A stretch of 20,349 bases of DNA from a virus. Numbering within the stretch: the first letter of the stretch is position 1; each line of letters begins with the position of its first letter. Made by a program: the position numbers and the translations under genes. This document shows positions 1-20,134 of the stretch, piece after piece. The notes below the pieces were generated by a model that saw only the letters and a program-made list of their open reading frames with translations, was not told the origin of the DNA and did not search any database. The stretch is from positions 1 through 20,349 of IMG/VR virus record IMGVR_UViG_3300035665_001758. One strand, written 5' to 3'.

Positions 1-208
1 CCGCGCGGGCAGACGCAAACCCCGTGGGCAGCGTTCCAGAGCCATCGGTCACGGTCACGGTGCCGGTCGTCTCGAAGCCTTGCAGCTTCAGCACGCGCTG
101 CATTTCCGATTCCGCGAGGTCAATGAACGTGTCCACGACCGAGGACAGGTCGTTGCGCTCGTAGAAGTCCGCGATCTCAGTCTTTAGCGCGCTGTACGTC
201 GTCGCCAT
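1..208 (-). CDS. Head-tail adaptor protein, SU10/P22-gp4-like (partial, C-terminus beyond window)
   Basis: My own translation of the minus strand from ATG at 208 runs open to the window edge (69 codons) and begins MATTYSALKTEIADFYERN. This start, followed by helical text with V-V-D-T-F-I-D-L-A-E-S-E-M-Q-R and then a G-T-L-P-x-G-F turn, resembles the phage adaptor family that docks under the portal in P22-like and SU10-like heads (family knowledge). A purine-rich AAGGAAG lies about 7 nt before the ATG. The start overlaps the 3' end of the upstream methyltransferase gene by 32 nt, so the two are probably co-translated. Its presence after the sugar-modifying genes shows that those genes sit inside the structural operon and not at its end. 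The C-terminal part cannot be judged. Confidence 0.75.
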   Translation of the reverse strand, partial: MATTYSALKTEIADFYERNDLSSVVDTFIDLAESEMQRVLKLQGFETTGTVTVTDGSGTLPTGFASARA

Positions 209-728
209 GGGGCTTCCTTGCAGTGATTCGCATGTCTCGCGCGGGTTGATGGGTCAGGGGTTCGCAGACTTCGATGTCAACGAATCCGAGCATTTCCAAG
301 CCGATGGCAAGCTCCTGCTCGGAGTAGCACCACCGATGGCACATGGCCTCGCTTTGGTACGAGGGGTCACCGAACAGGCCGAGGATCGTCAGGCGCGGAT
401 TCGGTGCTTGGCCCGACTCCATTGCCTCGGCGTACAGGCCGACGATCTTGTCTAAGCACGGCATCTCCAGCACCAGCAGACCGCCAGGCTTCAAGACGCG
501 GAACCAGTCCTTTAGGATGCTCGGCGCCTGCCACCGATAGAAGTGCTCCAGCACATGAATCGCGTGCGCCTCGTCCGCGTAGCCGTCGGGCAAGGGCAGC
601 GGCTTTGTCAGGTCGCACTCGATGTCTGGCTTGGTGCCCGCCCAGTTCCCGGGCAGGTCAATATTGACGAACCCGGGCAGCAGCTTCGCCCCGCAGCCGA
701 TGTTCAGCTTGACAGGGCCGCTATCCAT
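177..728 (-). CDS. SAM-dependent methyltransferase, class I (Methyltransf_11-like)
   Basis: 183 residues. A SAM-binding motif I is visible as LNIGCGAKLLPGF (residues 8-20) followed by the acidic strand VNIDL; further motifs are HVLEHF (58-63) and LKPGG (79-83) before a hydrophobic strand. This order is typical of small class I methyltransferases found in polysaccharide and glycan clusters. The substrate is not visible in the sequence. Because three glycosyltransferase genes lie directly upstream in the same transcription direction (its ATG overlaps the GT4-like gene by 25 nt), methylation of a sugar or of a glycosylated product is the most economical inference. Alternatives are a protein or small-molecule methyltransferase. 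It is not a DNA methylase: there is no DPPY/SPPY-type motif IV. Confidence 0.85.
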   Translation of the reverse strand: MDSGPVKLNIGCGAKLLPGFVNIDLPGNWAGTKPDIECDLTKPLPLPDGYADEAHAIHVLEHFYRWQAPSILKDWFRVLKPGGLLVLEMPCLDKIVGLYAEAMESGQAPNPRLTILGLFGDPSYQSEAMCHRWCYSEQELAIGLEMLGFVDIEVCEPLTHQPARDMRITARKPHGDDVQRAKD

Positions 729-1492
729 TGCTCGCCGATCCTTTCGGGGCTGTAGGTCTGTGCAACGTAGGCTTGTGATGCCTTGATGCGCCGCATCACT
801 TCATCCTGATTCGACAGCGCCCACTTCACGCCATCCTCGATGTCGCCGATGTACACACCGAGGTCTGCATAAGCCGGCAGGAACCCCGCCACCACGAACA
901 GGCCCCGGCGAATGCTCTCTATCGCCCGGTTGCCTGACTTGCACAAGCTCTTGCCGGTCGGAATCACGACGATGCCCGCGCGGTCGAAGGCCCGATCCAT
1001 CGTCTCAGGCGACCATTGCGTGATCCCGTGGACAGCCGGCAGCGTGGTGACGATCTCCAGCTTCTCCAGCCGGCTCATCCACGGCATGAGGTCGCCGAGG
1101 TTCGACTGATGCCCGAACCACAACAGCGAGTCATGCACCCGCGCCTCTTTCTCAGGCTGCTCGAACGGGTCAGGGATCACCACCGCCTTACGTCCAGTCC
1201 GCTCATAGACTTTGCGGGCCATCTCGTCTGAGTTGACCGTCACCACGTCAGCAAGCCGACAGCCGCTCACGTAGTGGTCAGCGTGCGGGCCGTCAAAGTG
1301 GTCGTCGCACACGTCGAAGCACACATTGTCGAAGCCGGCCACTTGCTGCCGCCATGACCAGCCGTGTTTCCCAATCACGAGCCAGTCAGTGCCGATCCCG
1401 TGGCCGGCTTTCTGTAGCTGCTGTGCCGGGATGATCGACCGATACCGGCTCGACGCCAAGTGCGCGCCGAAGTGCCTGAACGTCACGTTCAA
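704..1492 (-). CDS. Glycosyltransferase, GT4-like fold (GT-B)
   Basis: 262 residues if translation starts at TTG 1492. That codon overlaps the stop of the preceding gene (TTGA) and has a good GGAGG seven bases upstream, which is why I prefer it to the GTG two codons later. The N-terminus (NVTFRHFGAHLASSRYR, then IIPAQQLQKAG) is the first half-fold of a GT-B enzyme. The middle holds CDDHFDG...ADVVTVNSDEMARKVYERTGRKAVVIPDPFE, which is the acceptor/donor interdomain pattern of GT4 proteins. The C-terminal half has GIVVIPTGKSLCKSGNR-A-I-E-S-I-R-R-G, resembling the donor-nucleotide site with the conserved E. It is short for GT4 (usually 350-400 aa), so some of the fold may be reduced. Donor and acceptor are unknown. 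It is third in the sugar cassette. Confidence 0.75.
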   Translation of the reverse strand: MNVTFRHFGAHLASSRYRSIIPAQQLQKAGHGIGTDWLVIGKHGWSWRQQVAGFDNVCFDVCDDHFDGPHADHYVSGCRLADVVTVNSDEMARKVYERTGRKAVVIPDPFEQPEKEARVHDSLLWFGHQSNLGDLMPWMSRLEKLEIVTTLPAVHGITQWSPETMDRAFDRAGIVVIPTGKSLCKSGNRAIESIRRGLFVVAGFLPAYADLGVYIGDIEDGVKWALSNQDEVMRRIKASQAYVAQTYSPERIGEQWIAALSS

Positions 1493-2169
1493 ATCAGAAC
1501 CTCCGTGGCCTGGCGCTTGGTTTCCAGCCATTCCGCGCCGTGCTCGCAGTCGCGGTAGTGCGCGATGTCAGGAACGCCCAACGTGTAGTGCGCCAGCTTC
1601 GCGCCCGGGTCGGCGGCCTGCTCGTTGACGAGGTGGTTCCACTCGGCCGGCAGCGCTCCGATCTCATCGTCCGTCAGATGCTCGAAGCGGTGCAGCTTGG
1701 CGCCTGTTGCGTCCATCACATAACGCGGCGTAAGCAGCCGATTCGACGGGTGCCCGCAGTTCCAGAGGATCACGCTGCTCCAGTTCTTCCGCGGGTAGCT
1801 GGCGTTAATCGTTTCCATTGACGTGCCCCGGTACTTCAGCGGGTGCCGCGTCTTGTAGTCATGCTGAACAACCTGCACCGCGCACTGTTCGTCGCGCATG
1901 TTCCAGAGCTTGGTGATGTCGTCCCTGACCAGCATGTCGCCGTCAGCAAAGATCGCCCATCCCTCGTACCCCATCAAGTGCGGGACAAGGAAACGCGAGT
2001 AGATGAATGCGTTGGAGCCGTCTGTGTGCGTCTCTTCGTAGTCATGCAACAGCGACAGCGCCAGCGGGTGAAACGCCACACGACTTGACGAGTGGTTGAT
2101 CACTGACTGGCAGAAGACGTGATACGCCACGGCTTCCCTCGGGTCGAAACCCACAAACAAGGGGATCAT
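1489..2169 (-). CDS. Glycosyltransferase, GT8-like (GT-A, DXD-containing)
   Basis: 226 residues from ATG 2169. The start was chosen because the protein then begins MIPLFVGFDPREAVAYHVF, the usual opening of this family. The metal/nucleotide-sugar motif is ADGDML (residues 75-80, DXD-type DGD at 76-78). Downstream are RKNWSSVILWNCGHP (127-141), LPAEWNHLV (173-181) and KLAHYTLG (191-198), whose histidine fits the third metal ligand of GT8 enzymes. Similar proteins are known from bacteria and from cyanophage genomes (established knowledge, not searched here). The reaction is expected to be transfer of a hexose from a nucleotide sugar with retention; the acceptor is not visible. The upstream TPR-glycosyltransferase frame reads 128 nt into this gene, an overlap far longer than any other here. 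Confidence 0.85.
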   Translation of the reverse strand: MIPLFVGFDPREAVAYHVFCQSVINHSSSRVAFHPLALSLLHDYEETHTDGSNAFIYSRFLVPHLMGYEGWAIFADGDMLVRDDITKLWNMRDEQCAVQVVQHDYKTRHPLKYRGTSMETINASYPRKNWSSVILWNCGHPSNRLLTPRYVMDATGAKLHRFEHLTDDEIGALPAEWNHLVNEQAADPGAKLAHYTLGVPDIAHYRDCEHGAEWLETKRQATEVLI

Positions 2170-3493
2170 TGATGAGCCTTTCAATGGTTGATTTCCAAGA
2201 CTCGCCCTCCCGTTGTTTGAACAACGAGGCCGAGCGATACCAGGGCATCGAACCATCCGGAAGACAGTAAATCCAGATCGTCCGTGAAGGGACCAAGATG
2301 ATCCCGGGGACACCCAGCGCCCCCGCTAGGTGATGGGCGGTTGTGTGTACGCCAATCACCATGTCCAACTCGGCCACCATCGCGGCCGTGTCGTCATAGT
2401 CGTCTGTTTCACAGGCCCGCTTGTAGTGGCGGATCGGCAGTCCAAACTCCTTGATTTCCGCGGTCGGGTCTTTGTATTGCAGGCTGATCCAATCTGCGTC
2501 AATTGATTCGATCAGGCCACGCATCGCCTCCAGGCCGATGGCGCGTTCCTTTGGCTTGTTGTGCTTCGACCCACCTGACCAGCAAATGCCGATCTTTGGC
2601 TTTGGCCCGAATGAGTCGAACAACGCCCGCCACTGCGTTCGCCGTTCGGGATCAGCGATCAGATACGGAGTCCCGGGGCAGTCCTTCGGGCTTGGCCGGC
2701 AGAACTGCGGCATCTGGCCCACCGGCAGGGAAGCGTCAACCTGCACGCCCTCAAGCCACGGCACCGCTTCATCGCGGCGGGTGCCATGCACCTCGATGCC
2801 AGGGAACGAGCGGCGGAACAGACCTTCCAGCCGTTTGTCGCAGTCCACGATCACACGACCGCAGGCTTTCTCCATGTCCGGCAAGCACGAGGCGTACATG
2901 ATCTCGTCGCCTAGCCCCTGCTCACCGTAGAACACCACCGTTTGACCCGGTGACCCATCCCACATGCCCTCATCGGCGTACTGGATCTGCTTGCGGAACT
3001 TGCCGCCGACACTGCTGCTGTACTGCTTCCAGCCCTCGGACCAGTTCCCGAGCGACAGGTTGCACATGCCAAGCGTGTTGGTTGCTGACTTGCCATTCGG
3101 CTCAATGGCTAAAGACTTGTTGCACCACTCGGCCGCTTTCTTAAAGTCGCGGTCGGCGAAATAGGTCATTCCCACGTTTGCCGAGAACAGCGGGCTTCGC
3201 TTGTTGCGGTTGTGCGCTTCAAAGAACGCACCCCGGGCCTTGCCGTTGTTGCCAAGCCCGGCGTAGCACATTCCGAGATTGTTCCAAGGCTCGGGACGCT
3301 CGGGCTTCAGTTGCGTGATGCGCGTGTAAAGGTTGACCGCCACGCCGAAGCGCTCGGCACGCGAATACACCTCCGCGATGACAAACAGCGCCAATGCGTC
3401 GTCGGGGTTCTTGTCAAGCGACAGCGCGGCGCGGCGGCTGGCCTCGTCGGGGTCGTCGTCGATAAGCTGCGAAAGCTCGTCAAACGAAGTCAA
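2042..3493 (-). CDS. TPR-repeat protein fused to GT9-like glycosyltransferase domain
   Basis: 483 residues from TTG 3493, which overlaps the preceding stop as TTGA; no ATG or GTG lies near. Residues about 33-165 are tetratricopeptide-like helical repeats (for example PEPWNNLGMCYAGLGNNGKA and SATNTLGMCNLSLGNWSEGW). Residues about 183-440 look like a GT9/ADP-heptose-transferase GT-B domain: VVFYGEQGLGDEIMYASCLP (186-205), KIGICWSGG (300-308) and DMVIGVHTTAHHLAGALGVP (377-396). In TPR-GT proteins such as O-GlcNAc-transferase relatives, the repeats bind a protein acceptor, so protein glycosylation is a fair inference, here perhaps of a virion protein. The last 40 or so residues (after about 443) lie in the overlap with the next gene and look like out-of-frame low-complexity text. 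The functional protein may naturally end near residue 443. Confidence 0.8.
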   Translation of the reverse strand: MTSFDELSQLIDDDPDEASRRAALSLDKNPDDALALFVIAEVYSRAERFGVAVNLYTRITQLKPERPEPWNNLGMCYAGLGNNGKARGAFFEAHNRNKRSPLFSANVGMTYFADRDFKKAAEWCNKSLAIEPNGKSATNTLGMCNLSLGNWSEGWKQYSSSVGGKFRKQIQYADEGMWDGSPGQTVVFYGEQGLGDEIMYASCLPDMEKACGRVIVDCDKRLEGLFRRSFPGIEVHGTRRDEAVPWLEGVQVDASLPVGQMPQFCRPSPKDCPGTPYLIADPERRTQWRALFDSFGPKPKIGICWSGGSKHNKPKERAIGLEAMRGLIESIDADWISLQYKDPTAEIKEFGLPIRHYKRACETDDYDDTAAMVAELDMVIGVHTTAHHLAGALGVPGIILVPSRTIWIYCLPDGSMPWYRSASLFKQREGESWKSTIERLINDPLVCGFRPEGSRGVSRLLPVSDQPLVKSCGVSPAGAVAVA

Positions 3494-3819
3494 AACGCAC
3501 CCCGCGTTGTGAAAAGAGAGCCGTACTTTTCCTTATGCCGGCTGAGGAACTTGCGCACCTCTTTGGCGGGGGCTGAATAGACGTTGAACCCGTCTTCGGT
3601 CAGCATCTTGAGGGCGATTGCCTCGGGAATGTGGACGCAGTGCCAAAAGTTGGCCTTGATGCCTGCGGCGCTGTAGTCATCCGCATTCCGAAGGCTTGTC
3701 GCGTGATCGAGCGATGGCGACACGTCTTGCTCGGTCTGCACAACCAGCTTGCCATCCTGGGCGCCGATGGTTGTCTTCAGCCCGGTCAGCCGGTCAACGC
3801 TAGATTCAAAAATTCGCAT
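3490..3819 (-). CDS. Small conserved-type head protein encoded just after the major capsid gene
   Basis: 109 residues from ATG 3819 (MRIFESSVDRLTGLKTTIG). The ORF could be extended upstream on paper, but that would run through the terminator hairpin and the capsid gene, so this start is preferred. The shape (short N-terminal strand pair, QTEQDVSPSLDHA, a FWHCVHIPEAIALKMLTEDG segment and a charged basic tail) resembles the small proteins that many podoviruses and siphoviruses encode immediately after the capsid gene. Their function is unproven; a role in head completion or host takeover is unknown. The ATG lies one base after the T-tract of an intrinsic terminator and has no Shine-Dalgarno outside the hairpin, so expression from the capsid transcript should be low. 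It may start as a near-leaderless product or need read-through. Confidence 0.7.
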   Translation of the reverse strand: MRIFESSVDRLTGLKTTIGAQDGKLVVQTEQDVSPSLDHATSLRNADDYSAAGIKANFWHCVHIPEAIALKMLTEDGFNVYSAPAKEVRKFLSRHKEKYGSLFTTRGAF

Positions 3820-3820
3820 G

Positions 3821-3853
3821 AAAAAAGGGGCCGAGCTTGTTAGGCCCGGCCCC
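3821..3853 (-). terminator. Strong intrinsic terminator after the major capsid gene
   Basis: On the minus strand a 10-bp stem (GGGGCCGGGC with GCTCGGCCCC, one G-U pair) closes a 7-base loop and is followed directly by six Ts (positions 3826-3821). It lies 33 nt downstream of the capsid stop codon, and its T-tract ends one base from the ATG of the next gene. It probably sets the capsid transcript apart from the genes that follow. Confidence 0.85.
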
Positions 3854-3886: not shown

Positions 3887-4864
3887 TCAGGAAGCGTCCT
3901 GCACCTTCGAGTGAGCGTCGGGGTTGCCGACGACCAAGCACCACTCGGCGAGGATTTCGCCCCGCGTTGCGTCACCCGTTTTCGCGCGTTCCTCGAACTT
4001 GATCGGACGCAGGAACGCCGTCGCCAAGTACTCGGGGTCCAGGCACAGCACCGTGCGGGTCCGCATGTAGCGGTTCAGCATGATCTTGTGCTCGCCGAAG
4101 TCGCTGATGTAGAGGTCAACGCCACCCAGCACCACAGCATTGCTGTTGCGGCCTTGGTTCTGGTTGACGCTCACGCCTGCGAACTTCGACGCACCGCCGA
4201 AGGTGGCGACCTTCCGCTTCAGCGCGGCGCCCATCATGATCACGCTCGGGTCGCCGCCGTCTTCCCATGCGGCCTGCAGCGCTTCCACGAACGCCGTTTC
4301 CGTCAGCGCAGCGGTCGTGCCGTCCACCGGTGCCGTCCAGGCGCCCGCGGCAAAACCAGCAGTCGTGCCGACGCTGTTGGTCGTGGCGGCGAGGACGCGG
4401 TTGCCCGCAATCATCGATTCCAGGCCAGCAGACGAGCGAGCCACCGAGGTCGAGCCAGCAGACGAGCCCTGGTTGCCGACCATTGCGGCTTCGATGTCGC
4501 GCTTCAGTTCGCGGCCACGCTTGGCGATCTGGTACGCGAACTCCTCCTTGCGACCGTACTTGCGCACAGCGTCGGCGGTGCCCGACACCATCACGGTCTT
4601 CCTGGAAATCTGCGTGTAGTTCGACAGCATGGTCGTCGGCGCTGCCGTCGCATACGTCGAATCGTCGCCTTCAACAGCGCGGTTTGCGCCGGTCGCGGCC
4701 AGCGAATCCGTCTGCCACTGGTGATTCACCGCCGAAGCCTTGATGCGCTTCGCCATCGAAAAGGCGGGCGTCTCGGTCGGGGTGATGTTGTAGATGACGT
4801 CCTGCACGTCTTCGGCAAGGCCGATGAGGTCGAAGGTGTCAGTGGTTCCAGCTACTTGTGCCAT
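3887..4864 (-). CDS. Major capsid protein, SU10/DUF5309 type (HK97 fold expected)
   Basis: 325 residues from ATG 4864 (MAQVAGTTDTFDLIGLAEDVQDV); GGAAG stands about 7 nt upstream. The earlier in-frame start at 4936 would only add arginine-rich text from inside the scaffold gene. Family hallmarks are NITPTETPAFSMAKRIKA near the N-terminus, then HQWQTDSLAA, KRGRELKRDIE, a middle with VIMMGAALKRKVATFGG, and VDLYISDFGEHKIMLNRYM followed by VLCLDPEYLATAFLRP. It is expected to assemble the icosahedral shell. It follows a scaffold gene by one base and is followed by a stable hairpin and a strong terminator, which fits a very abundant product. Confidence 0.9.
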   Translation of the reverse strand: MAQVAGTTDTFDLIGLAEDVQDVIYNITPTETPAFSMAKRIKASAVNHQWQTDSLAATGANRAVEGDDSTYATAAPTTMLSNYTQISRKTVMVSGTADAVRKYGRKEEFAYQIAKRGRELKRDIEAAMVGNQGSSAGSTSVARSSAGLESMIAGNRVLAATTNSVGTTAGFAAGAWTAPVDGTTAALTETAFVEALQAAWEDGGDPSVIMMGAALKRKVATFGGASKFAGVSVNQNQGRNSNAVVLGGVDLYISDFGEHKIMLNRYMRTRTVLCLDPEYLATAFLRPIKFEERAKTGDATRGEILAEWCLVVGNPDAHSKVQDAS

Positions 4865-8146: not shown

Positions 8147-8977
8147 TTACACCGTGATGGTTGCGGCGTCCAAGCAGAACGCATACGTATCAAACGCCGT
8201 TTGCACCATGCCCCGCGCGTTGAAGTGCAGGTTGTCGGGCTCCATGTATAGCTGCTGCATGATGGCCTCCAGAAGCCCGCCGCTTCCATCAGCGACGGCC
8301 TGCTTCGCGTCGTTCATGCCCGGGCCGTAGCGGCTGTGCCCATCGGGAATCAGTGTTATGACGCCGCGATATGGGAGGATGCCTTCAACGACGCAGGCGT
8401 CGGCCAAGTCTTGCAGGCGCGGCTGATACCACGACTGCGGCTGCGTGTATTCCGCTTCGCCCTGGCTCCAGAACCAGAAGGTCTTTTCGTCGTCAATGCT
8501 CACGCCGTTGGTTGCGAGCCATGCGTTTTGGGCGGTGTGACTGTCGACACCATCCAGCCATCGCGCCGCACTCGGGGGCGCAAACAGTTCGATTGATGTG
8601 CCGCCGAAAGCGTTTTTGCTCATGTAGAGCACGCCAGTCGTCGTCTCGCGCATCCAGCGAACCGCAAATCCGAACTCAGGCCCTAGAAGGGTTGAGTCGG
8701 TGCCGTGATTGGAGCCGGGCACGTAAGTGGCGTAGGCCGTGCCGTTCCAAAACATCACGCGGTCAAACGTCAGTGTGCCGTCGTCCCAGTCGACTAGCTC
8801 TGTATCTGCGGTGATGTCTGCAACGCCAGAGCGCAGGGCAGCGCCGGCTGCGTTGGATTGGCCCCAGAAGCTGATGCGGGCATTGTTCGGCGGCGGCTCC
8901 ATCGCGCCCACGCGCATAGGCCCACGGCCGCCACGCTTGACGGCACGCAAGGGCGGGCGCAGGGCGCGCGGGATCAT
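8147..8977 (-). CDS. SGNH/GDSL hydrolase, sialate-O-acetylesterase-like (SASA/DUF303)
   Basis: 276 residues from ATG 8977, sharing the A of the preceding stop (TGATG). Catalytic blocks are visible: ISFWGQSNAAG (35-45) with the nucleophile Ser41, KNAFGGTSIE (121-130) with the block II glycine, FWSQGEAE (169-176), and DNLHFNARG (248-256) with the Asp248/His251 pair. Enzymes of this family remove O-acetyl groups from sugars such as sialic acids or xylan. In a phage virion the likely target is an acetylated capsular or O-antigen polysaccharide. There is no signal peptide; the N-terminus is basic (RPPLRAVKRGGRG), which could be a virion-attachment tail. It sits in the surface-protein block, between the portal and scaffold genes. 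Confidence 0.85.
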   Translation of the reverse strand: MIPRALRPPLRAVKRGGRGPMRVGAMEPPPNNARISFWGQSNAAGAALRSGVADITADTELVDWDDGTLTFDRVMFWNGTAYATYVPGSNHGTDSTLLGPEFGFAVRWMRETTTGVLYMSKNAFGGTSIELFAPPSAARWLDGVDSHTAQNAWLATNGVSIDDEKTFWFWSQGEAEYTQPQSWYQPRLQDLADACVVEGILPYRGVITLIPDGHSRYGPGMNDAKQAVADGSGGLLEAIMQQLYMEPDNLHFNARGMVQTAFDTYAFCLDAATITV

Positions 8978-9419: not shown

Positions 9420-11759
9420 TCAGTCCTGAAGTTCAGAGTGCGTCGGTTTGCCGTCAGGTCCGCGGACAAGCACGCGCTTGGCCTTTACAGCCTTAGTCAA
9501 CTCGGTCTGATTCGCCGCCAGCGTCTCAAGCGCCTTGGCGACCTGGCCTAGCGCCCTTTCTTCCCCGGCTTCTTCTTTCCGGGGCTTTTCTTTGGCTTGC
9601 TGGGCTTGGGATACACGGTCGGAGTCCTTCTGCGCAGCGTCGTGCGCGATTTGCAGGGCTTGTGACTGGCTCGACTGCTCGGCACTCATGCCAGCAATCT
9701 GCAGCTTGGTGGCGTTGTCCTGATCGGTTTTGTACTTGGTGATCTGCGCTTCGAGGTCGGCCTTTTCGCGGTCGAACTGCAGCTTCATGGCGTCGATTTG
9801 CGCCTGCTGTTCAGCACGAAGGCGCTCTCGCTCTGCATCGCGCACGTCGTTGGACTGCTGCAACTGCAAGTTAGCCTGTAGCTCCTGCATCTTGAGCCCG
9901 AACTCTTCGCGCTTCAGTTGCAGCTCGGCGCCGATCCGCATCTGTTCAAGCTGCGATTGGCTCTGCGCCTTCATTTGCTCAATCTGAGCCTGGCCCTGAA
10001 CCTTTGCCTGCTCCTTCAGCACTTCAGGAGGCGGGCCGGGAGGCTGCGGCGGATTCATAGAGGGGTCTGACCAAAACTCGTTAGGGTCTTTGAAGCCACC
10101 CGCCTGAGTCAGTCGCTTGAGGGTGTTGTAGATCTTGTCCGGGCCGGTCAGACCGAACTGGAGCGCTTGGGTCTGAATGCCCAGCACTTGCATGAGGAAC
10201 GCGATCTGCTGCGGCCTGTCACCAGTGCCGAGGCCGACGCTGATGCTCATGTTTTCGCGCTTCTTCCACGAGCGCGGGTCGACAGGCACCCACTGATTGC
10301 GAAGCTGCACGATCTCAGCCTTGCGCGCGTTCTTCAGCGTCAGGGCGTGGACGACGCGGAACAGGGCCTTCACACCAGTCTCAGCAAAGATGCGGGCGAT
10401 GAACTTGATCCGCTGTTGCGCGGCGCCCATGAGCATTTGCGCGCCCGTGGCGGTCTTGTTCAGCGTGTTGGGGTCAAGCCCCTGGCTCTGCTCGTTGACG
10501 CCCGTCCGCTTCTGGCTGATGCGGTCCATGTACTCCATCATCGGCACAGCGATGTCGCCGGCTGCGGAGTGCGTCAGCGGCATGATCGCGTCGGCCATCG
10601 AAACGCCGGCTTTCTTGCGCACCACGCCGCCCGGACGACTGACGAGCATGTCGTCGAGGTTGATCGCGTCTTCGTCGATAACGTGGCGACCGTTGTTCGC
10701 CAAGTACAGGTTGTCCAGCGAGCCACGGAGCAGCGCGGTCTTGATGCGCTGCAGGTCCATGACCGCTTCAGCCATTGAAAGGCCGGCGTGCTGGTGCGGC
10801 AGAGGCACGGGACACAGCGCGACCAGCGTGACCTGATCGCACTCTTCGTCCGACAGGACCGTCGTGCCGACCACAACAACCCGGCGCAGTTCGGTTAGGC
10901 CGTCGTCGTCGCTGTCGAAGCGAATCCAGACGTTCCGCACCTTCAGGCGACGCGCTGCGGGGCTGCTCTCGTCGCCTTCGCTGTTGCGCCACGGATTCAG
11001 CGCATCGCGGCGCTCGTCTTCCCAATCCTGCGCGCCGTCAGCGTGGTCCGACAGGTCGTCGTCAACCTTGAACCCCTCGTCTCGGAGTTCGCTGATCGTC
11101 TTGTATTCCCAGTATTCGCAGAAGTCGAGGCGGGGATCTTGCAGGTTCAGGCCGCGGGCGTTGTGGCTGATAAGCACACGCTCAGGCGCGACGTTCTCAA
11201 ACTTGACGCAGCCGTAGGACGCGACCCGCTCAATCGTCAGATTGAACGTGAGCCCGTACTCTGTCGGCACCTGCTCGGCTTCGACAATCGAAACCGACGA
11301 GTCTTGCAGCATCAGCGCGGCTTCATCCTCTGACAGCCCCTGATACTTTTCCTTCGTCCGGTCCTCGCGGTCTTCGTAGTAGGCAATGACGTAGCCCACT
11401 TTCTGAAGCAGCGCGTCATGACTCCAGCCGTACCACGTCGTGAACCAGTCGTTCTTCTCGGTGATGATGTGGTTGACAAACTCCGTCTCTTGCTCGGCGG
11501 CCTTCACGTCCTCCGGGCCGGTCGGGCTGAACATCACCACCTGATCGCCGCCGCAGAAGATGTCGGCTAGTTGCGGCTTGATCCATTCCACCGTGTCCCA
11601 CACGTCGCGGGAGATGACGGCCGAGCGCCCCTCTACCTCGTTGCCAAGCGGCTTGCCGAGGTAGTAATCAAGCGCAGTCGAGCGCTCGTCGCTCAAGTCC
11701 CCGTAGGAACTGGCGAGCGTTTCGTGGCGCTCAATGGCTGCGAGAAGGGTGTCGTTCAC
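9420..11759 (-). CDS. Portal protein, P22-like/podovirus type, with long coiled-coil C-terminus
   Basis: 779 residues from GTG 11759, overlapping the previous stop as GTGA. The N-terminal MNDTLLAAIERHETLASSYG, then ALDYYLGKPLGNEVEGRSAV and DTVEWIKPQLADIFCGGD, is the recognised opening of large podovirus portals. The core includes GTTVLSDEECDQVTLVALCP, LLRGSLDNLYLANNGR and RPGGVVRKKAG, followed by GLDPNTLNKTATGAQMLM (the portal wing/stem segment). From about residue 575 it is Pro-rich and then a long Gln/Glu/Lys coiled coil to about 720, like the helical barrel of P22-type portals. It would form the dodecameric DNA gate at one head vertex. The size (779 aa) fits the large-portal class. Confidence 0.9.
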   Translation of the reverse strand: MNDTLLAAIERHETLASSYGDLSDERSTALDYYLGKPLGNEVEGRSAVISRDVWDTVEWIKPQLADIFCGGDQVVMFSPTGPEDVKAAEQETEFVNHIITEKNDWFTTWYGWSHDALLQKVGYVIAYYEDREDRTKEKYQGLSEDEAALMLQDSSVSIVEAEQVPTEYGLTFNLTIERVASYGCVKFENVAPERVLISHNARGLNLQDPRLDFCEYWEYKTISELRDEGFKVDDDLSDHADGAQDWEDERRDALNPWRNSEGDESSPAARRLKVRNVWIRFDSDDDGLTELRRVVVVGTTVLSDEECDQVTLVALCPVPLPHQHAGLSMAEAVMDLQRIKTALLRGSLDNLYLANNGRHVIDEDAINLDDMLVSRPGGVVRKKAGVSMADAIMPLTHSAAGDIAVPMMEYMDRISQKRTGVNEQSQGLDPNTLNKTATGAQMLMGAAQQRIKFIARIFAETGVKALFRVVHALTLKNARKAEIVQLRNQWVPVDPRSWKKRENMSISVGLGTGDRPQQIAFLMQVLGIQTQALQFGLTGPDKIYNTLKRLTQAGGFKDPNEFWSDPSMNPPQPPGPPPEVLKEQAKVQGQAQIEQMKAQSQSQLEQMRIGAELQLKREEFGLKMQELQANLQLQQSNDVRDAERERLRAEQQAQIDAMKLQFDREKADLEAQITKYKTDQDNATKLQIAGMSAEQSSQSQALQIAHDAAQKDSDRVSQAQQAKEKPRKEEAGEERALGQVAKALETLAANQTELTKAVKAKRVLVRGPDGKPTHSELQD

Positions 11760-11944
11760 GTCTGGGCTTTCGGGGGTCGGCCTGGGCCTTTGCGTTCTTC
11801 CACGGTACGCAGACGCTCGGACAGGTCTGCGTATGAGTCGATGAGGTTCTGCACGACGCGCTCGCGCTCTTGCTCGCGCTGCTCAATGGCGGCTTGGCGC
11901 TCGCGCAGGTTCTTCAGTTCGAGTAGCTGGCCGATGCGGCTCAT
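11756..11944 (-). CDS. Small coiled-coil protein between terminase and portal
   Basis: 62 residues from ATG 11944, overlapping the terminase stop as ATGA. Most of it is one amphipathic helix rich in Glu, Arg and Gln (LLELKNLRERQAAIEQREQE) that predicts a coiled coil. It ends in a basic GPGRPPKAQT tail, which contains the GRP core of an AT-hook. A role in bridging the packaging motor and portal or DNA is possible but only inferred from position and composition. Confidence 0.6.
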   Translation of the reverse strand: MSRIGQLLELKNLRERQAAIEQREQERERVVQNLIDSYADLSERLRTVEERKGPGRPPKAQT

Positions 11945-13188
11945 ATGACCCCGTTCTTTGGGTACACGATGGGCTTCAACTCTTCGTTGACCATCTGCGC
12001 GGCAGACACGGCGATGTAGCGGTAGTTGTCCGCGCCGTGGCTGTTGATGTCGTGAACTGGGGCGCCAGGCTCTCCGGTTGACTCAGGAATGCCGCGCTTG
12101 TACCGCTTGAGGCGGCTGACCAGCAGCGCGGCCTTGGTCTTGTCGAAGTACGTGCGGGACAGAGCCGCTCGCGCCTCCTTGATTCCGGTTTCGATGGCTT
12201 TGTTGGGGGCCTGGAAGACCGACCATTTCAGGTCGCGCATGATCTGAATCGCGCTCTTGCCGGTCTTGTAGTCGCCGTGCGCGCCGTCGTGGGGGAGGAA
12301 CATCTTTCCCCAGTTGAGGTGCCTGTTCCGCAGCTCGGCGCTGATCCAGTCAAGCGTGCGGTGGTCTTCCTCGAAGTATTCGATCACCCGCAACTCGGAC
12401 AGTTGGCGCTGAACGATGGACACGGCCATCAGGTCGTTCCAGCCCAGGTCGAGGATGACGTGAGCCTTTAGCTTCGGCTCATACGGCACATTGCAGATGC
12501 GCCCGTTCTCGGTGGCGTCTCTGATCTCGTCGGCATAAATCGCGCCATCAACCGCTGCCTTGCAGTCGCCTTCCCAGATGTTCCGGTACTCGTCGCTCGG
12601 CAGCGTGCGTTCAGCGTGCGCCCGCTCGTCTTCAAGTACGGAGGGAAACCACGGGTTGTCGCTGTAGTTGACCTTGACGACGTGCGCGCTTGGCGGCGTG
12701 TTGACCACAAACCGCTGATACGTCTCGTCGTCGTCAAGCTCCGGGTTGAAGCTGACCCATATCTCTGACAAGTCCTTGCGGATCGTCGGAATCAGGATCG
12801 TCCAACTGCGCTTAGTGACCTTCTGAGCCTCTTCGACCCAGCAGCGATCAATGCCTTCGTAGCTCTTGATCGACTCGACCGTCTGCGTGGACAAGCCAGC
12901 AAACAGGAACTCACTGCCGTTGCGGCCCCGGATCGTGGTTTCCAGAACCTCGAAAAACTGCCCCAGCCCAAGCGCCTGGATCTGGTCACTCAGCAGCTTG
13001 TGAACAGAGTCCTTGATGGACTTCTGCACTTCTCGCGTGCATAGGACGCGGATCTTCTGAGTCGCAGCCTGGATCAGCAGCGCCCTGGCGTAGCCCCATG
13101 ACTTGCCGGAGCCGCGACCGCCGTATGCGATCTTGTAGCGCTTGGGGTGGAAGAGGAACCGGAGCTTCTCGGGGAACTCTGCGTTCAC
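11941..13188 (-). CDS. terL: Terminase large subunit (PBSX/Terminase_3 type)
   Basis: 415 residues from GTG 13188, overlapping the small-subunit-like gene as GTGA. The ATPase domain shows Walker A GGRGSGKS (23-30), Walker B CWVEEAQ (116-122, Glu at 119/120) and a SFNPE motif (146-150) after it. The nuclease domain has the three acidic residues expected of an RNase H-like fold: Asp247 in ILDLGW, Asp301 in PHDGAHG and Asp387 in HGADNYR. The length is near the usual 410-480 for PBSX-type enzymes. It packages DNA into the procapsid through the portal and cuts it. The small subunit lies directly upstream. Confidence 0.95.
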   Translation of the reverse strand: MNAEFPEKLRFLFHPKRYKIAYGGRGSGKSWGYARALLIQAATQKIRVLCTREVQKSIKDSVHKLLSDQIQALGLGQFFEVLETTIRGRNGSEFLFAGLSTQTVESIKSYEGIDRCWVEEAQKVTKRSWTILIPTIRKDLSEIWVSFNPELDDDETYQRFVVNTPPSAHVVKVNYSDNPWFPSVLEDERAHAERTLPSDEYRNIWEGDCKAAVDGAIYADEIRDATENGRICNVPYEPKLKAHVILDLGWNDLMAVSIVQRQLSELRVIEYFEEDHRTLDWISAELRNRHLNWGKMFLPHDGAHGDYKTGKSAIQIMRDLKWSVFQAPNKAIETGIKEARAALSRTYFDKTKAALLVSRLKRYKRGIPESTGEPGAPVHDINSHGADNYRYIAVSAAQMVNEELKPIVYPKNGVI

Positions 13189-19218: not shown

Positions 19219-19463
19219 GCTTGCTCTCCTGTACGGGCGGACATCACCCGCTCGGACGATGCGTGCAGGGGATGGTCTGCGGCGGCCGGGGCTGCGACAG
19301 TCTCGGCATGGATGAACTTGTCGCCCTGCTCGCACACGCTCAGGTAAAACGGGCTGGCCGGTCCGCTTTTCGCCAGCCATCGGGCGCACTGGTCGCGCCG
19401 TTGGCAGCGGTCAGCGGTGAACGGCTTGCGACCCGCGCAGCGGGCTACGTCGAGCGGCAGCAT
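19209..19463 (-). CDS. Small Cys-rich protein after cro
   Basis: 84 residues from ATG 19463, which shares the A of the cro stop (TGATG); a longer form from 19514 would overlap cro by 52 nt. The front half holds four Cys in the pattern C9-x10-C20-x5-C26-x17-C44 within VARCAGRKPFTADRCQRRDQ, CARWL and LSVCEQGDKF. This suggests a small metal-binding protein of a type common behind cro in phages of betaproteobacteria. The tail is Ala-rich and unstructured. Its stop overlaps the HNH start by 10 nt. Function unknown. Confidence 0.6.
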   Translation of the reverse strand: MLPLDVARCAGRKPFTADRCQRRDQCARWLAKSGPASPFYLSVCEQGDKFIHAETVAAPAAADHPLHASSERVMSARTGEQAWP

Positions 19464-19654
19464 CAGGCGACAGCCTTCGACGTGACCCCCGGGCGACCTT
19501 GAGCCATGCGCCACAGCGCAGCCTGCACACGGTCAGCAATCCGCGGCGGCAAGTCCTCGGGCCACTGCGCGATTGCCTGCACGGACACCCCGACAGCAGC
19601 CGCAGCCGCCGCAGGCGTACCCCCCAAAAGTCGGATAGCTTCGGTCTTGGTCAT
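19463..19654 (-). CDS. cro: Cro-like repressor (YdaS/Cro family)
   Basis: 63 residues from ATG 19654 (MTKTEAIRLLGGTPAAAAAA). The small HTH is AAAAAAVGVSVQAIAQWPED (residues 15-34), then LPPRIADRVQAALWRMAQ, as in short Cro/YdaS proteins. The recognition helix GVSVQAI-Q is nearly the same as that of the divergent repressor, so both should bind the same operators. A promoter with -10 ATTAAA (plus-strand reading, 19660-19665) ends 5 nt before the ATG, so the mRNA likely begins at or next to the ATG (leaderless). It should start the leftward early transcript and shut down the repressor. Confidence 0.85.
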   Translation of the reverse strand: MTKTEAIRLLGGTPAAAAAAVGVSVQAIAQWPEDLPPRIADRVQAALWRMAQGRPGVTSKAVA

Positions 19655-19659
19655 GCGCC

Positions 19660-19688
19660 ATTAAAGCATGCTTCCCGAATGCGCGCAA
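19660..19688 (-). promoter_or_regulatory. Early leftward promoter (PR-like, drives cro)
   Basis: On the minus strand TTGCGC (19688-19683), then a 17-nt spacer, then TTTAAT (19665-19660). The operator AAGCATGCTT overlaps the last bases of the spacer and the -10, and a second copy overlaps the -35. It closely matches the rightward promoter at 20178-20206 in -35, spacer length and operator position. The predicted start falls at the ATG of cro. Confidence 0.75.
19664..19673. promoter_or_regulatory. Operator copy 1 (AAGCATGCTT)
   Basis: Perfect 10-bp palindrome overlapping the -10 and spacer of the leftward promoter. The same word is exact at 20193-20202 and nearly exact at 19687-19696. Likely binding site of both the repressor and Cro. 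Confidence 0.8.
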
Positions 19689-19696
19689 GCATGCTC
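19687..19696. promoter_or_regulatory. Operator copy 2 (AAGCATGCTC)
   Basis: One mismatch from the palindrome, centred 23 bp from copy 1, which is about two helical turns and suits cooperative binding. It overlaps the -35 of the cro promoter. Confidence 0.75.
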
Positions 19697-19710
19697 AGCG
19701 GGCACCCTGT

Positions 19711-19716
19711 GAAAAT
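19711..19716 (+). promoter_or_regulatory. Weak repressor-maintenance promoter (-10 candidate GAAAAT)
   Basis: A GAAAAT -10-like hexamer lies 7 nt before the repressor ATG (19724), with no clear -35 and no Shine-Dalgarno between them. A start there would give a leaderless repressor mRNA, as for lambda cI from PRM. A -35 region near 19688-19693 would lie inside operator copy 2, which fits activation by a bound repressor. Confidence 0.4.
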
Positions 19717-19719
19717 TCC

Positions 19720-19729
19720 AAGCATGAGC
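19720..19729. promoter_or_regulatory. Operator-like half-site overlapping the repressor start codon
   Basis: AAGCATGAGC keeps the AAGCATG half of the operator and covers the repressor ATG (19724-19726). It is centred 33 bp, about three turns, from copy 2. It could be a weak third operator for self-repression, or chance. Confidence 0.45.
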
Positions 19730-20134
19730 TTTCAGGACCGGCTGCAAGCGGCGATTGCCCGTGCCAACGCCACGCCTAAGACCCTCGCAAGCGCGCTGGG
19801 TGTTAGCGTGCAGGCTATTGGTCAGGTGCTGAGCGGCTCAACTAGAGCACTGACAGCAGAGAACTGCGTCAAGGCGGCGCTGTTCCTCGGCGTCAGAACT
19901 GAGTGGCTCGCGGCTGACCTAGGGGATATGGCCCTAGAGAAGGCTGAGCGAGAAATGTCACTGTCACCGCAAGAGCGCGACCTGATCGTCGCCCTGCGCG
20001 TCCTGCCCGAAGCTGAACGGCTGAAAGTCACCGCATCGGTGATGCACCAGGCACGCGCCCAACTCGACCAGCTATCCGCGCTGATCGACCGCAACCCCCC
20101 GACCCCCGGGACTGTCATTCCCTTGCGTCGGTAA
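19724..20134 (+). CDS. cI-like repressor, HTH type without a peptidase domain
   Basis: 136 residues from ATG 19724; a 75-codon longer reading would run back through cro and its promoter and is rejected. The HTH is at residues about 18-40 (TPKTLASALGVSVQAIGQVL), followed by SGSTRALTAENCVKAALFLG. The C-terminal 65 residues (SLSPQERDLIVALRVLPEAE, then LKVTASVMHQARAQLDQLSA) are helical and probably dimerise. There is no LexA/S24 autocleavage domain, so RecA-driven self-cleavage is not expected; induction may need an antirepressor or other signal. Its operators flank it on both sides. Confidence 0.85.
   Translation: MSFQDRLQAAIARANATPKTLASALGVSVQAIGQVLSGSTRALTAENCVKAALFLGVRTEWLAADLGDMALEKAEREMSLSPQERDLIVALRVLPEAERLKVTASVMHQARAQLDQLSALIDRNPPTPGTVIPLRR

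Follow-up and report, generated by a model that had tools for sequence, protein, structure and literature searches.

IMG/VR virus record IMGVR_UViG_3300035665_001758 is a phage fragment of 20,349 bases, and the whole record is the window analysed here. Near its start lies a cassette of four minus-strand genes (177-3493) that encode a tetratricopeptide repeat (TPR) protein with a glycosyltransferase domain (TPR-GT), a GT8-like and a GT4-like glycosyltransferase, and an S-adenosylmethionine (SAM)-dependent methyltransferase (MT). The cassette is part of a late operon on the minus strand, in which the order is terminase, portal, scaffold, capsid, a gene for a conserved protein of 109 amino acids (aa), cassette and head-tail adaptor. 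A first-pass annotation made from the sequence alone had placed four co-oriented, overlapping genes between capsid and adaptor. The genes are real, and every neighbouring pair overlaps: the 109-aa gene and TPR-GT share 4 nucleotides (nt), TPR-GT and GT8 128 nt, GT8 and GT4 4 nt, GT4 and MT 25 nt, and MT and adaptor 32 nt. The adaptor does adjoin the cassette, but the capsid gene is separated from TPR-GT by the 109-aa gene.

TPR-GT (2042-3493, minus strand) is a TPR-GT9-like putative protein glycosyltransferase that begins at a TTG codon. It is composed of an N-terminal TPR array and a C-terminal GT-B domain, as identified by several Pfam TPR models and by AlphaFold2 (pLDDT 92.5, with a disordered tail). 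Among 70 family members, Pfam finds TPRs in 69 and Glyco_transf_9 in 20 (best 2.6e-4), the window protein itself being unmatched by the latter; no GT41 model matched it. Foldseek against the PDB gives SPINDLY (E 1.2e-11) and bacterial OGT (9.5e-10) as the best matches, which places the predicted structure among TPR-bearing protein O-glycosyltransferases. Ten residues are invariant across 69 sequences (W178, Q192, G193, G195, D196, G302, G307, G308, R317 and Y340). Possessing no hydrophobic segment (maximum Kyte-Doolittle 19-mer 1.48), TPR-GT is predicted to be soluble and cytoplasmic. Its last 43 codons overprint GT8 (2042-2169, 128 nt). Many window-type relatives likewise have an overlap, of ~121-154 nt, and the two genes have flush ends in other lineages. 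The C-terminal tail was considered as an extra domain and rejected, being disordered in the model and equal to the GT8 overprint.

The GT8-like protein (1489-2169, minus strand, ATG start) is a GT-A glycosyltransferase with a D-G-D motif at residues 76-78. Glyco_transf_8 matches it slightly below the cut-off (5.9e-5, 23.2 bits against 24.3) and is found in 28 of 32 family members, with a best value of 1.8e-10. D76 and D78 of the DXD metal site, H194 and G198 are invariant in the alignment. The GT8 family has a C-terminal HxxGxxKPW motif, whereas the spacing here is H-x3-G. The third cassette protein (704-1492, minus strand, 262 aa) starts at a TTG that overlaps the GT8 stop and matched no Pfam family. 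Its AlphaFold2 model (pLDDT 96.9) is a compact two-domain GT-B fold, for which Foldseek returns GT4-type GT-B enzymes from 1.1e-10 (7qsg). GT4 enzymes carry an EX7E motif; the corresponding stretch here, in the family alignment, reads K185-S-x-N-R, with E192 in just 19 of 37 sequences, and the protein is therefore named GT4-like only. For both GT8 and GT4 proteins, phmmer against PDB sequences gave nothing useful. The fourth protein (177-728, minus strand) is by its motifs a class I SAM methyltransferase, with GxG, HxxEH and LKPGG, invariant G11, G13 and D24, and a Methyltransf_11 match of 7.9e-8 (33.3 bits against a cut-off of 21.2). The DXD, TPR and SAM motifs named in the first-pass annotation are confirmed by the invariant DXD, the TPR models and the glycine-rich SAM motif. 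Its count of three different glycosyltransferase folds has to be lowered, as the three families use two folds, GT-B twice and GT-A once.

TPR-GT is widespread, with at least 583 stretches in IMG/VR. Scanning IMG/VR with GT8, capsid, TPR-GT and GT4, where each scan kept the best 80 matches and contigs were partial, gave 278 sequences for gene-order analysis. They contain 95 unique TPR-GT loci, of which 77 have over 700 nt of upstream sequence. In 75 of these 77, TPR-GT is preceded by the 109-aa gene: the script scored 73 directly, and L154, with overlapping frames, and L206, with an intervening GT8, were added to them. The adaptor lies downstream in 85 of the 95. The window order TPRGT-GT8-GT4-MT, whose recurrence in related phages the first-pass annotation had proposed to check, is found in 25 unique loci. 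Other arrangements are TPRGT-MT2-GT8 (11), TPRGT-GT8-MT2 (11) and TPRGT-MT2 (6), where MT2 is a methyltransferase different from MT, and in further loci TPR-GT is accompanied by a GT9-like gene, an FkbM methyltransferase gene or others. One lineage has its GT8 gene upstream of the terminase, with TPR-GT still behind the capsid. TPR-GT is the fixed element; GT8, GT4 and MT are exchanged in some relatives and absent from others. The suggestion that the four genes form a complete short glycan pathway therefore goes too far.

The position of TPR-GT bears on the view that the glycan goes to a non-head protein of the virion, for example a tail fibre or spike, and that the head operon gives late expression only. 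Consistent with that view, phage CcrColossus has a GT8 relative a few genes past a putative tail protein, with GT9 and sialyltransferase-like genes nearby. It is nonetheless unlikely, because in nearly all loci TPR-GT stands beside the capsid and 109-aa genes, upstream of the adaptor and the tail region.

Some cassettes (L086, L087, L014, L152, L173, L175 and L218) also include a radical-SAM/SPASM protein with an invariant CxxxCxFC motif and invariant C-terminal cysteines, which possibly modifies the sugar or the acceptor. HNH homing endonucleases are inserted repeatedly around the capsid and cassette genes (L083 9012-9596 and similar).

A further scan used capsid sequences alone, independent of TPR-GT, and found TPR-GT present in 29 loci, absent in 36 and undecided in 14. 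On a capsid tree of 115 rows that also included the earlier loci (63 TPR-GT carriers and 52 others; quick method with Shimodaira-Hasegawa-like approximate likelihood ratio test, SH-aLRT, support), the carriers occupy one side of one branch, with one change and an SH-aLRT of 98. TPR-GT has one origin, and no loss was seen within the sampled clade. TPR-GT distances correlate with those of capsid (r 0.83) and portal (0.87), which is as strong as the core head genes track each other; the value for GT8 is lower (0.47).

Phages tf, Clew-1 and HTVC106P lack the cassette but have the capsid gene, the 109-aa gene and the adaptor gene. A related clade, also cassette-free, has the same slot occupied by an unrelated phrog_1574 protein that shows a DSD motif and matches glycosyltransferases weakly. 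A gap of 580-713 nt between the 109-aa gene (also termed pMCP2) and the adaptor is seen in cassette-free loci L398, L400, L401, L414, L417, L420, L426, L427, L429, L432 and L436. A GT-A-like protein with DSDMRFP fills it in the four inspected loci (L398, L400, L414 and L417), and the slot proteins of L414 and L417 match phrog_1574, which is listed as of unknown function.

Selection on the cassette was estimated from the ratio of nonsynonymous to synonymous substitution rates (dN/dS). Compared with relatives that are 53-79% identical, the window has a cassette dN/dS of 0.11-0.29 and, in the same comparisons, a capsid dN/dS of 0.20-0.31; the TPR-GT and GT4 comparisons with L083 were left out as dS was saturated. 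The cassette is neither random nor decaying: it is under purifying selection wherever dN/dS is computable, and its catalytic residues are invariant in divergent relatives. The first-pass annotation had named absence or random replacement in relatives, with no conserved active sites, as the outcome that would speak against its proposal; the recurrent order and the invariant residues leave that proposal standing. The window and L082 (IMGVR 3300034012_000767) share ~98% identity across 6.1 kb and have TPR-GT, GT8 and GT4 in common, while the L082 methyltransferase is just 79% identical to that of the window. A divergent MT in a near-identical phage indicates recombination inside the cassette. That slot content differs between phages would fit accessory cargo without a virion role, gained repeatedly at a permissive site. 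The single origin, the lack of loss in the sampled clade, the purifying selection and the congruence with head genes make such cargo very unlikely.

In bacterial genomes, relatives of TPR-GT, GT8 and MT2 are clustered. On the TPR-GT tree, the phage proteins and two metagenome-bin contigs (L280 and L333) stand apart from 75 bacterial sequences with a support of 96. L333, from a Thiotrichaceae bin, has a phage-clade TPR-GT plus MT2, GT4, MT, GT8 and adaptor, and L280, from an Aquincola bin, has a TPR-GT inside the phage clade; the two bins hint at a pseudomonadotan host. TPR-GT lies within 10 kb of a flagellin gene in 9 of 22 bacterial genomes bearing both, where 2.0 were expected and none of 20,000 simulations of random placement reached 9, an excess that is somewhat inflated because the choice of genomes drew in part on loci already known to contain flagellin. 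In Caulobacter, the TPR domain of FlmG, the nearest characterised analogue of TPR-GT, binds flagellin, and its GT-B domain glycosylates flagellin in the cytoplasm (PMC7591256).

The flagellin link also raises the prospect that the target is on the host, with lipopolysaccharide (LPS), capsule or flagellin modified so as to prevent superinfection or change the serotype. Cro-like and repressor genes (window 19463-20134) and an integrase gene on a longer contig (L278 492-1478) make it probable that the phage is temperate. This fits the host-surface alternative, as does the nearness of bacterial TPR-GT relatives to flagellin genes. We nevertheless consider it improbable. None of the four cassette proteins has a membrane segment, and no flippase or membrane protein is found among the cassette genes. 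The genes are located in the late head operon, a search near the cassette found no promoter-like site, and the cassette is tied one-to-one to one capsid clade. Of the earlier proposal that a methylated glycan is built on a virion protein or on a host surface molecule, the host half is thus disfavoured although the phage looks temperate. The virion half gains strong comparative support from TPR-GT being locked beside the capsid and 109-aa genes, from the flagellin-linked relatives and FlmG, and from the glycosyltransferase-like gene in the slot of the related clade.

With TPR-GT fixed amid head genes and the extending and methylating enzymes swappable, these phages probably place a methylated sugar chain on their own particles. 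We favour, with somewhat better than even confidence, the reading that a late-expressed, cytoplasmic, phage-encoded system glycosylates a virion protein, most probably one of the head. The cassette would be expressed with the late head genes, and the TPR superhelix of TPR-GT would dock on a virion protein from the same operon, the most likely acceptors being the major capsid protein and the 109-aa protein encoded directly upstream. TPR-GT would attach the first sugar, with a nucleotide-sugar of the host as donor. GT8 and the compact GT-B enzyme would lengthen the chain, and capping by the methyltransferase would leave the particle with a short, methylated O-glycan. The benefit may be shielding of the particle, a changed surface charge or adsorption, or stabilisation of the head.

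The candidate capsid protein (SU10_MCP, 3887-4861, minus strand; Pfam 1.6e-94) was placed on the capsid trees, and its start was set at the conserved N-terminus. The candidate 109-aa gene (3490-3819, minus strand) matches phrog_3982 weakly in the window and strongly in tf and Clew-1. An intrinsic terminator (3827-3853, minus strand; 10 pairs, 9 of them G-C, followed by TTTTTT) lies in the gap between the two genes, and Pseudomonas phage tf has an annotated terminator at the same position. This terminator would raise capsid output over that of the downstream genes. Group-specific conserved residues were sought in capsid, 109-aa protein, adaptor and scaffold. Those that emerged are a short loop and a few individual positions in the capsid, and a Thr at the C-terminus of the 109-aa protein. 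The loop, the clearest capsid difference between phages with and without the cassette, is a Thr/Pro/Gly stretch, TTPG[FY], near residue 161 in the aligned window capsid; it is shared by cassette-positive capsids and rarer in cassette-free relatives, and the C-terminal Thr has the same cassette-linked pattern.

Besides the choice of flagellin-positive genomes noted above, several points weigh against glycosylation of the particle. The loop and Thr patterns are inseparable from descent because the cassette has a single origin, and the operon position may reflect history rather than the acceptor. The whole-chain template modelling score of TPR-GT to OGT and SPY is low (~0.33), so that match depends on local alignment. 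A Pfam search of the larger frames left on the 42-kb contig showed no sugar-nucleotide synthesis gene, and the donor must therefore be host-supplied. We infer the glycan on the particle from comparative data, and with it the protein acceptor and its identity, the order of sugar addition, the O-linkage and the benefit. The searched frames bear on one more alternative, hypermodification of DNA by glucosylated modified bases, as in T-even phages. DNA-modifying GT-B enzymes exist in phages, but no hydroxymethylase or thymidylate-synthase-like gene occurs among the Pfam-searched frames, neither TPR-GT9 nor GT8 is a family of DNA glucosyltransferases, and there is no link to replication genes. This alternative is hardly credible.

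A wider version of head-protein glycosylation is offered tentatively, as we hold it to be rather doubtful. Here a dedicated TPR-GT would modify a head protein throughout the lineage; the trait would be obligate and ancestral and, as with a core head gene, would serve particle assembly or stability. The outer glycan enzymes (GT8, GT4, MT and radical-SAM) would be exchanged and vary the surface chemistry, and the related clade would use an unrelated glycosyltransferase, encoded in the same slot, to the same end.

Elsewhere in the late operon, all on the minus strand, are the terminase (11941-13188), the SU10-type portal (9420-11759; Pfam SU10_portal 5.4e-188) and the head-tail adaptor (SU10_adaptor, 2-208; Pfam 2.3e-9). 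The adaptor is cut off by the contig end and is complete in L002 at 9965-10558. Part of a 42.4-kb contig (L093/L002) matches the window without difference across the compared overlap. Between portal and head genes, a block of small genes includes a sialic-acid-type acetylesterase (SASA, 3.4e-6; 8147-8977, minus strand), which could act on glycans.

The flagellin O-glycosyltransferase FlmG resembles TPR-GT in architecture, with N-terminal TPRs and a C-terminal GT-B domain in a soluble cytoplasmic protein, and flagellin genes are found close to bacterial TPR-GT relatives. The difference is that TPR-GT sits in a phage head operon, where its acceptor would be a virion protein. OGT (GT41) and SPINDLY also combine TPRs with GT-B and are the top Foldseek matches, yet the glycosyltransferase domain is GT9-like by Pfam in 20 of 70 family members, and no GT41 model matches the window protein. 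Gtf3/GtfC, second-step enzymes of serine-rich adhesins, resemble the GT4-like protein by Foldseek, at an identity of ~10% and in an unrelated context. Seroconversion gtr systems differ in using a membrane glucosyltransferase and a flippase.

To our knowledge, sugar coats of phage particles are documented in a few mycobacteriophages only. Che8, Corndog and Myrna modify capsid and tail with their own glycosyltransferases, according to the account of Freeman 2023 given in PMC12363180. The window would share with these phages the modification of virion proteins by phage-encoded glycosyltransferases. Judged from its genes, the window system differs in being TPR-guided, multi-enzyme and lineage-wide, with methylation and a fixed head-operon slot. 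In tblastn searches, TPR-GT and GT8 matched no mycobacteriophage, and GT4 matched no phage whatever. Among 50,697 phage records there was one full-length TPR-GT match, itself from an environmental assembly. No description of a phage TPR-GT/GT8 capsid cassette was found in the literature, which is weak evidence of novelty as journal coverage was incomplete.

Virion glycosylation is thus already known from mycobacteriophages, and the lineage-defining TPR-GT variant is new. The phages that carry TPR-GT form a widespread, almost wholly uncultivated lineage. Comparison within this lineage points towards a system of several steps, guided by TPRs and clonal with the capsid, and identifies definite genes, candidate acceptors and a set of accessory genes. 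Such a system could account for protection of the virion, for its charge or for new adsorption properties.

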